NCBI GenBank assembly: GCA_947258365.1
Contig: CAMYIK010000003.1
Location: forward strand, 1 to 36,998
Origin: an uncultured Thermoleophilia bacterium
Lineage (GTDB): Bacteria > Actinomycetota > Thermoleophilia > Miltoncostaeales > Miltoncostaeaceae
DNA length: 36,998 nt
Reading direction: 5' to 3'
A program made the translations under genes and the position numbers. Below are positions 26,095-32,734 of this stretch, piece by piece. Position 1 is the stretch's first letter, and the number at the start of each line of letters is the position of its first letter. The notes beneath the pieces are model-generated. The model ran no database searches and was not told the origin of the DNA. It saw nothing but the letters and a program-made list of their open reading frames with translations.

Positions 26095-30657
<4,563 letters not shown>

Positions 30658-30677: not shown

Positions 30678-30720
30678 GACAACGGCCTCCGGCGTTCGCG
30701 TCGGGGGCCGTTGTCGTTCT
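30678..30720 (+). terminator. Strong terminator after rpoC with UUCG loop
   Basis: A 17-bp stem (30678-30694 with 30699-30715, two or three G-T wobbles in the inner part) closes on TTCG and is followed by GTTCT. The outer ten pairs, GACAACGGCC/GGCCGTTGTC, are perfect. It also overlaps the stop of the convergent SRPBCC gene. Confidence 0.85.
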
Positions 30721-31135
30721 AGGGCGCGTCCAGCAGTTCGGAGGCGAGCTGGTCGAGGCACATCTCCCAGCCACCACGATGATGTTCGTTCAGGTCGGCT
30801 GGCAGGCCCGAGTGCGACAGCCGGATGCGAGTGCCCTCCGGTGTCGGTGAGAGGTCGATGGTGACCGTCGTCGATCCTGGCGGCATCTCGAACGGAGCGC
30901 CCGTCCAGCCCCAGGTCACGACCAGGCGCTCGTTCTCGACTGCCTCGACGACCGTGCCGGAGGCGACGGCGCCATCGGGCATCCTCATCTCGAACGGCGC
31001 CCCGGCACGGGCGTCGATGCTGCAAATTACCCCTTTCCACCGCGCTCAGAGCTCGCCGGTCGTCAGGTATGGCCAGACCTTCTCCGGTGGCACGCCGACG
31101 ACCCGCTCGACCGATACCGGGGCAGACTGATTCAC
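30719..31135 (-). pseudogene. SRPBCC (AHSA1-like) gene with an in-frame TGA
   Basis: From GTG 31135 the frame reads NQSAPVSVERVVGVPPEKVW (a typical AHSA1 start), then LTTGEL, a TGA at 31046-31048 (codon 30), and continues in the same frame. The rest includes RWKGVICSID, GAPFEMRMPDG, RLVVTWGW and GGWEMCLDQLASELL, to TAG at 30719-30721. Homologues usually have tryptophan (TGG) at this place. A single G-to-A change would create the stop. Without readthrough only a 109-residue or shorter C-terminal part could be made from an internal start. The gene overlaps arsR (GTGA junction), with AGGAG five bases upstream. It is either inactivated, recoded, or a sequencing error. SRPBCC proteins bind hydrophobic ligands in a cavity. 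Confidence 0.75.
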
Positions 31136-31440
31136 GGAGTCTCCTGAGGGTGGTCGGCTTCGATGACCTCCACCAGCGTGTCGAGTTTCGATGCCCAAAT
31201 GCTCTCCAGGACCGCGCGCATCTCCCCGAGCGCGTCCTTGTCCGCGCGGTAGAGGCGCCGATTGCCGTCCTTGGTCACGGTGACGTAGCCGGCATCACGG
31301 AGCACGGCCAGGTGTTGGGAGACGGCGCCGAAGGTGATGTCGAATTGCGCAGCGACCTCGCCAGCGCTGTGGTCGCGGTCCCAGACCAGTCGGAGGATCT
31401 CCCGGCGGCGGGGCTCGGTGACGATCTGCACGGCATCCAC
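31132..31440 (-). CDS. ArsR-family winged-helix repressor
   Basis: This 102-residue protein is a small ArsR-type regulator. The start is VTEPRRREILRLVWDRDHSA, the recognition helix lies in FGAVSQHLAVLRDAGYV, and the wing is TVTKDGNRRLYRADKDAL. There are no metal-binding CxC or similar sites, so it may sense something other than metals. Start GTG 31440 lies next to its own -10 box, with no ribosome site, so translation may be leaderless. Its stop overlaps the SRPBCC pseudogene start, and a second SRPBCC gene diverges from it. ArsR-AHSA1 pairs are common in actinobacteria. It likely represses both directions through the paired operator at 31443-31511. Confidence 0.88.
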   Translation of the reverse strand: MDAVQIVTEPRRREILRLVWDRDHSAGEVAAQFDITFGAVSQHLAVLRDAGYVTVTKDGNRRLYRADKDALGEMRAVLESIWASKLDTLVEVIEADHPQETP

Positions 31441-31442
31441 GG

Positions 31443-31511
31443 ATCTATTTTAGTGACGGTTGAAATGCGTGCCAGCGTCGGGCTACTGTTCACGTGGTGA
31501 CTAAAATAGAT
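31443..31511. promoter_or_regulatory. Divergent promoter with paired ArsR operator
   Basis: Two identical 12-mers in opposite orientation flank the gap: ATCTATTTTAGT at 31443-31454 and its complement ACTAAAATAGAT at 31500-31511. Each holds TAAAAT, a near-consensus -10 for its own gene. On the minus strand CTGGCA lies 17 bases before TAAAAT, which puts the arsR start at its GTG codon. The ArsR protein most likely binds both copies. Confidence 0.75.
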
Positions 31512-31521
31512 GGAGGTACCG

Positions 31522-31962
31522 ATGAGCGATCACCGCATGGTCTTTCAGACCGTCGTTGACGCCAGCCAAAGCGAGGTGATGACGGCACTGACGACGCCAG
31601 AGGGTATCGCCAGTTGGTGGACGGCCAGCGTCGAGATCGAGGCAGACGCGCTCAGGCCGTCGTTCCCGAGTGCGCCGCTGCGGTTCGACGTGACGATCTC
31701 CGAGAGCGGACCTCGGCGTCTGGTGTGGACCGCCGGGGAGTTCCCGCCGCCGTGGCAGGGAACCCGCTGCGTCTGGGAACTCTCAGACGGACCCGAGGGT
31801 GGAACCCAGATCGACTTCTCCCACCGCGACTGGACCGACAACAACCCGATGATGGGCATGGTCACGATGGAATGGGCGCGCATTCTCGACCACCTGGCGA
31901 GGTACGTTGAGACTGGCACACCCGACCCGCGCACCCCCGCGGGAGCCTACGAGGAGAACTAG
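31522..31962 (+). CDS. SRPBCC (AHSA1-like) domain protein
   Basis: This 146-residue single-domain START-like protein has DHRMVFQTVVDASQSEVMTA at the start and TTPEGIASWWTAS as the second helix. The typical strand RRLVWTAGEFPPPWQGT and C-terminal helix TMEWARILDHLARYVETG follow. ATG 31522 is preceded by GGAGG five bases upstream; an earlier ATG at 31510 lies in the operator and is less likely. It is transcribed away from arsR. The next gene's ribosome site overlaps its stop, so it is coupled to the TfoX-like gene. Function is unknown; related proteins bind small hydrophobic ligands. Confidence 0.85.
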   Translation: MSDHRMVFQTVVDASQSEVMTALTTPEGIASWWTASVEIEADALRPSFPSAPLRFDVTISESGPRRLVWTAGEFPPPWQGTRCVWELSDGPEGGTQIDFSHRDWTDNNPMMGMVTMEWARILDHLARYVETGTPDPRTPAGAYEEN

Positions 31963-31973
31963 GGAGGCCCGGG

Positions 31974-32345
31974 ATGAAGATGCCCAAGCCGACGGAGGCC
32001 GACAAGCAGTACTTCACCGAGCTCGTCGCCAAACATCCGGAGGTCGAGCTGAAGCCGATGTTCGGCAATCTCGGTGCGTTCGTGAACGGCAATATGGTGG
32101 CCGGCCTGTTCGGAAGTGTGGTCGGCTTACGGGTAAACGAAGTTGATCGCGCTGCCCTGGAGGCGGAGCCAGGTTCGGGCCCATTCGGGCCCGAGGAGCG
32201 ACCGATGAAGGACTACGTCGCCATCCCGGCCGCCTGGCGTACCGAGCCCGCGACGACCACCGACTGGGTCCAGGGGGCCGTCGCACATACCGCGGCGATG
32301 CCTCCCAAAAAGAAGAAGGCGAAGCCCAAGAAGAAGGCGGGCTGA
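31974..32345 (+). CDS. TfoX N-terminal domain family protein
   Basis: This 123-residue protein resembles the stand-alone TfoX N-terminal domain. It has ADKQYFTELVAKHPEVELKP, then MFGNLGAFVNGNMVAGLFG and VGLRVNEVDRAALEA. Further features are FGPEERPMKDYVAIPAAW and a lysine-rich tail (KKKKAKPKKKAG). GGGAGG lies six bases before ATG 31974. In competence bacteria TfoX is a regulator; the single-domain form is widespread with no known role. The basic tail may bind nucleic acid. It is in an operon with SRPBCC and VOC genes. Confidence 0.82.
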   Translation: MKMPKPTEADKQYFTELVAKHPEVELKPMFGNLGAFVNGNMVAGLFGSVVGLRVNEVDRAALEAEPGSGPFGPEERPMKDYVAIPAAWRTEPATTTDWVQGAVAHTAAMPPKKKKAKPKKKAG

Positions 32346-32347
32346 GG

Positions 32348-32734
32348 ATGCCCCCACGCTTCAACGCGGTCGGCATCGTCGCCGACGACCTGGACGCGGC
32401 CCTCGCCTTCTACGAACTACTCGGTCTCGACGTTCCCTCCGAGCGTGAGGGCCACGTCGAGGTGGCGATGCCAAACGGCATCCGGCTCATGTTCGACTCT
32501 GTCGAGGTCGTCCAGAGCTTCTCGGCATGGTCGCCACCGACCGGCGGCGGGCGCCGAGTGGCGCTTGCCTTCCTCTGTGAGAGCCCGGCTGAAGTCGACG
32601 AGGTGCACGCCCGGGTCGTCAGCGTGGGGCACCGATCCCAAGTTGCGCCGTTCGATGCGCCGAGGGGTCAGCGCTACGCGACCGTCATCGACCCCGACGG
32701 TAACCGGGTCGACCTCTTCGCGGCCCTCGGCTAG
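32348..32734 (+). CDS. VOC-superfamily (glyoxalase/bleomycin resistance-like) protein
   Basis: This 128-residue protein has the paired beta-alpha-beta-beta-beta modules of the vicinal oxygen chelate fold. FNAVGIVADDLDAALAFYEL and LGLDVPSEREGHVEVA open module 1. RVALAFLCESPAEVDEVHA and GQRYATVIDPDGNRVDLFA close module 2. The last acidic/aspartate-rich segment is a typical metal-site region. ATG 32348 is two bases after the TfoX stop. The ligand is unknown; members include glyoxalase-like enzymes and antibiotic-binding proteins. Third gene in the arsR-divergent operon; its stop is nine bases from the convergent HIT gene. Confidence 0.85.
   Translation: MPPRFNAVGIVADDLDAALAFYELLGLDVPSEREGHVEVAMPNGIRLMFDSVEVVQSFSAWSPPTGGGRRVALAFLCESPAEVDEVHARVVSVGHRSQVAPFDAPRGQRYATVIDPDGNRVDLFAALG

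Follow-up and report, generated by a model that had tools for sequence, protein, structure and literature searches.

A conserved palindrome at a predicted leaderless arsR gene and its divergent SRPBCC neighbour: probable operators of a putative non-metal ArsR autorepressor

Introduction

The window analysed here, a stretch of 36,998 nucleotides from an uncultured Thermoleophilia bacterium (contig CAMYIK010000003.1 of assembly GCA_947258365.1), carries two AT-rich 12-mers, ATCTATTTTAGT and ACTAAAATAGAT, in the intergenic region that separates a minus-strand arsR-family gene from a plus-strand gene of SRPBCC/AHSA1 type. Each contains TAAAAT, and they raise the question of how the two diverging genes are controlled. 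An initial annotation had read the pair as a mirror-image operator lying over the -10 boxes of both genes, with a leaderless arsR transcript. We examined this reading by comparison with related loci, and propose that the 12-mers belong to two separate operators of a local, non-metal ArsR autorepressor.

The nearest studied system that we found is Rv2034 of Mycobacterium tuberculosis, an ArsR-like autorepressor in an operon with the polyketide_cyc2 gene Rv2035. Its footprint covers its own start region, its palindromic operator extends from -30 to +3 and reaches the start codon, its binding is not inhibited by the metals tested, and Cys61 is essential (PMC3338718). The published signature of leaderless genes is a -10 box about 12 bp before the start codon, without a Shine-Dalgarno sequence (PMC3160421, PMC3898074).

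Methods

A scan of GTDB contigs yielded 80 ArsR homologues from Streptomyces, Kutzneria, Acidimicrobiia, Chloroflexota, Planctomycetota, Acidobacteriota and other groups, and class-level searches supplied further ones. TFGAVSQH was one seed pattern of the contig scan, and upstream DNA was no part of the selection. Neighbouring genes at the relatives' loci were identified by tblastn. A same-genus genome and same-family genomes held no orthologue closer than ~41% identity, and footprinting was therefore performed on more distant loci. Because of the seed pattern, and because homologues with the TFGAVSQHL recognition helix form essentially one clade on the tree, the loci counted below are not independent of each other.

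Results

The regulator and its gene neighbourhood

The window protein has an ArsR-type HTH domain (PF01022, E 1.6e-11, above the gathering score) and scores just above the cut-off of the NCBIfam HTH_metalloreg model NF033788 (60.5 bits vs 55). Like the ArsR/SmtB metalloregulators it has a winged-helix fold; unlike them it has no cysteine, and so none of the metal- or metalloid-binding cysteines of the metal-sensing members, and its neighbours are SRPBCC, TfoX and glyoxalase genes with no metal-resistance gene adjoining. The name arsR is therefore not to be read as arsenic sensing. Cysteine is also missing from the aligned part of 63 of the 82 TFGAVSQHL homologues. SRPBCC2 follows arsR in the window and in 60 of 61 loci, and 42 of the 61 have a divergent SRPBCC or YCII gene. 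The divergent gene is YCII-like, not SRPBCC, in six actinobacterial MAG loci, four of them labelled Acidimicrobiia (L079, L089, L101, L103, L107, L119), where its promoter reads TTGAAA/TTGAAG-N17-TANNNT. On the other side of the cluster lies a 1520-aa ORF (26095-30657) that we take, from its sequence, for rpoC, the gene of RNA polymerase subunit beta'; it converges on SRPBCC2, and 61 bp separate the two ends.

Table 1. Features of the arsR-SRPBCC1 region (positions in the window).
Feature	Position	Strand	Remarks
SRPBCC2 (AHSA1-like)	30719..31135	-	Overlaps arsR stop; in-frame TGA at 31048-31046
arsR-family regulator	31132..31440	-	GTG start; predicted leaderless; no cysteine
First 12-mer	31443..31454	+	Outer arm of O1 plus flank; minus-strand arsR -10 TAAAAT (31452-31447) within
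Probable operator O1, ATTTCAA-N6-CTAAAAT	31447-31466	-	Imperfect palindrome; over arsR -10; same element in relatives
Probable -35 of divergent promoter, TTGAAA	31460..31465	+	Inside O1 inner arm
Weak -35-like CTGGCA of arsR promoter	31470..31475	-	17 nt from TAAAAT; consensus match only
Probable -10 of divergent promoter, TACTGT	31484..31489	+	Start expected near 31496; TATAGT or TACTGT there in relatives
Probable operator O2, GTTCACG-N6-CTAAAAT	31488-31507	+	At divergent promoter; inner arm degenerate; second TTTTAG-N6-CTAAA site upstream of arsR in relatives
Second 12-mer	31500..31511	+	Outer arm of O2 plus flank
Shine-Dalgarno GGAGG of SRPBCC1	31512..31516	+	Shine-Dalgarno core in 32/36 divergent genes
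SRPBCC1 (AHSA1-like), divergent gene	31522..31962	+	
TfoX_N domain protein	31974..32345	+	Probably co-transcribed, from spacing
Glyoxalase-fold protein	32348..32734	+	Probably co-transcribed, from spacing

The in-frame TGA of SRPBCC2 lies at codon 30, where 54 of 60 relatives have Trp. A Chloroflexota locus (L071) has TAG at the same codon (near 982-984) and an Acidimicrobiia locus (L037) has TAG four codons after the position of the window's TGA. No further stop interrupts the aligned frame in any of the three, and these stops are the only ones among 114 distinct SRPBCC2-like alignments. A search of 297 genomes with a related query returned no in-frame SRPBCC2 stop besides the window's; the class search flagged a TGA in one genome (G258), where the N-terminal region was out of frame. 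The in-frame stops may reflect assembly error, recent inactivation, read-through or re-initiation.

The 12-mers as arms of two palindromes

As initially described, the two 12-mers are separated by 45 bases, and each is the exact reverse complement of the other; strictly speaking, they form an inverted repeat and not a mirror repeat. The genome-wide search that had been suggested as a check, run on the 2.76 Mb assembly, returned two exact copies, both at this site, and within the window the matches at up to two mismatches numbered two, these same copies, where shuffles predict 0.12. A lone one-mismatch copy elsewhere in the assembly (contig C58) was rejected, as it falls inside a coding ORF. 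The flank AGAT of the 12-mers recurs in relatives, for example in L103, L077 and the upstream site of L075/L076.

Set beside the related loci, the element reads as an imperfect palindrome, ATTTTAG-N6-CTAAAAT, of which the window carries two, O1 and O2. The 12-mers are very probably operator elements of the neighbouring ArsR, which retains the core of the earlier operator proposal; comparison amends it in that each 12-mer appears to be the outer arm of its own palindrome, with a degenerate inner arm, that of O2 matching only weakly.

Leaderless arsR transcript

The minus-strand TAAAAT ends at 31447, 6 nt from the arsR GTG, and a +1 about 7 nt after the box falls on the GTG at 31440, with no Shine-Dalgarno sequence; a start farther upstream is excluded by an in-frame TAA inside the -10 box. 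The comparison supports the leaderless prediction: of 61 loci, 58 have TANNNT at a distance of 6-9 nt upstream of the arsR start codon and only six have a Shine-Dalgarno core, while the divergent genes show the core in 32 of 36 cases and TANNNT at leaderless spacing in none. The arsR mRNA thus very probably begins at its start codon. In -10 spacing and lack of a Shine-Dalgarno sequence the gene resembles the leaderless TANNNT genes of actinobacteria (PMC3160421, PMC3898074); unlike in those, the spacing is kept within the arsR clade in non-actinobacterial phyla too, being 6 or 7 nt in 57 of 79 loci when distant phyla are included.

Divergent promoter

SRPBCC1 most likely starts at the ATG at 31522 and has a leader containing GGAGG. 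Upstream, TTGAAA-N18-TACTGT (31460-31489) agrees with the divergent promoter seen in the nearest relatives: several Acidimicrobiia carry TTGAAA-N17-TATAGT there, and the Chloroflexota locus L071 has TTGAAA-N17-TACTGT. The wider pattern TTGA(A/C)N-N16-19-TANNNT is present on the divergent strand of 14 out of 40 regions, where shuffles give 0.26. TTGAAA-N17-TATAGT fits poorly in L036, L037, L038 and many Streptomyces, which makes this step less sure than the leaderless arsR.

The initial annotation had placed the divergent -10 at the second TAAAAT (31502-31507), so that both promoters would be mirror copies with an operator over each -10. This box does fit TANNNT, and in actinobacteria such a -10 can be enough on its own, with no -35 (PMC3898074), but the start that it sets, near 31514, would cut into GGAGG, whereas a start near 31496 keeps GGAGG in the leader. 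Moreover, no -35 lies 16-18 nt from it, and the corresponding outer arm in most relatives lacks the final T of TANNNT (e.g. CTAAAGCG). The assignment is probably wrong, and we regard mirrored -10 boxes as an unlikely arrangement; TTGAAA-N18-TACTGT is the more likely divergent promoter. Its -35 would fall within the inner arm of O1, which might explain the imperfect match of that arm to the palindrome.

Conservation of the operators

The related proteins are mostly about 45-70% identical to the window ArsR, yet their upstream DNA stayed alike: CTAAAAT stands shortly before the arsR start codon in nearly all homologues, with a second TTTTAG-N6-CTAAA-like site farther upstream in many. Of 61 loci, 55 have CTAAA in the last 45 nt before arsR and 18 have TTNWAR-N6-CTAAA; shuffled sequences give 1.7 and 0.015, respectively. 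Loci with a single site show a clean ATTTTAG-N6-CTAAAAT, often behind a TTGACA-like -35, as in Acidobacteriota and Planctomycetota, so that the palindrome fills the spacer and the -10. In the assembly, only O1 resembles the full operator at up to three mismatches; a wider regulon was not found at that threshold.

CTAAA/TTTAG stands just upstream of arsR in 80 of the 82 homologues with the TFGAVSQHL helix, vs 1 of the 25 RPA-helix homologues, whose upstream elements are CGTAA/CTTAC instead. As the former are essentially one clade, this co-change of helix and operator was dropped as independent evidence. Among the RPA-helix ArsR-SRPBCC pairs of class relatives (L007, L008, L040-L062), CGTAA/CTTAC resembles the published Rv2034 operator, and a -10-like box again lies near the start codon.

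The compact palindromes of the relatives also speak to whether the two 12-mers could jointly form a single operator with widely separated half-sites, each bound by its own dimer and the two linked through DNA looping or tetramer formation. Perfect outer and degenerate inner arms would suit such an arrangement, as would the ability of a single half-site to bind Rv2034 (PMC3338718); in relatives, nevertheless, each site is already a self-contained palindrome, and a single site is all that many loci possess, which makes a shared operator quite improbable. The 12-mers are better read as the conserved outer arms of two separate operators. That CTAAAAT is conserved merely as a strong shared -10 box is scarcely credible: it does sit at the arsR -10, but the other palindrome arm six bases away is conserved as well, the element is repeated upstream, and homologues with a different recognition helix carry other elements.

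Discussion

The sequences and their comparison show the sites, how they are conserved and spaced, the gene order, and the difference in Shine-Dalgarno cores between arsR and the divergent genes. From them we infer the binding and repression by ArsR, the exact start points and a releasing signal, and we are confident of the general outline: a local, non-metal ArsR autorepressor that would control, through two operators, a leaderless arsR-SRPBCC2 transcript and a leadered SRPBCC1-TfoX-glyoxalase transcript. At O1, one ArsR dimer would lie over the arsR -10 and, by way of the inner arm, also over the divergent -35, and at O2 another dimer would cover the divergent -10 and start point. Both transcripts would thus be repressed until ArsR is released by a signal that is probably not a metal.

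Like Rv2034, the window ArsR is a small ArsR-type protein, presumably dimeric, with an SRPBCC-type operon neighbour, a palindromic operator near its start codon and, by prediction, autorepression, and by analogy the two would work alike. The operator sequences differ: that of Rv2034 is CCGTAAGT-N4-ACTTACGG, as in the RPA-helix relatives, and is absent at the window site, which has ATTTCAA-N6-CTAAAAT as its version of ATTTTAG-N6-CTAAAAT. Rv2034 depends on Cys61, whereas the window protein lacks cysteine altogether; the divergent second operator is a further difference from Rv2034. As a module, a divergent autorepressed promoter is nothing unusual; the literature searched yielded no description of the operator ATTTTAG-N6-CTAAAAT and nothing direct on ArsR proteins with SRPBCC operators, and a search on NolR gave nothing either.

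The comparison provides a concrete candidate operator, ATTTTAG-N6-CTAAAAT, for a large and apparently uncharacterised group of SRPBCC-linked ArsR repressors. As this group spans Streptomyces, Acidimicrobiia, Chloroflexota, Acidobacteriota and Planctomycetota, targets can be predicted in cultured relatives, among which Streptomyces guryensis (L070) and S. olivochromogenes (L069) share the layout of the window. On balance we lean towards the view that a cross-phylum ArsR clade has conserved a compact cassette: operator, -10 and start codon stand in a fixed arrangement that gives a leaderless repressor mRNA, and in its divergent versions an operator arm doubles as the neighbour's -35. This suggests that leaderless expression of an autorepressor may have been kept over very long evolutionary distances.
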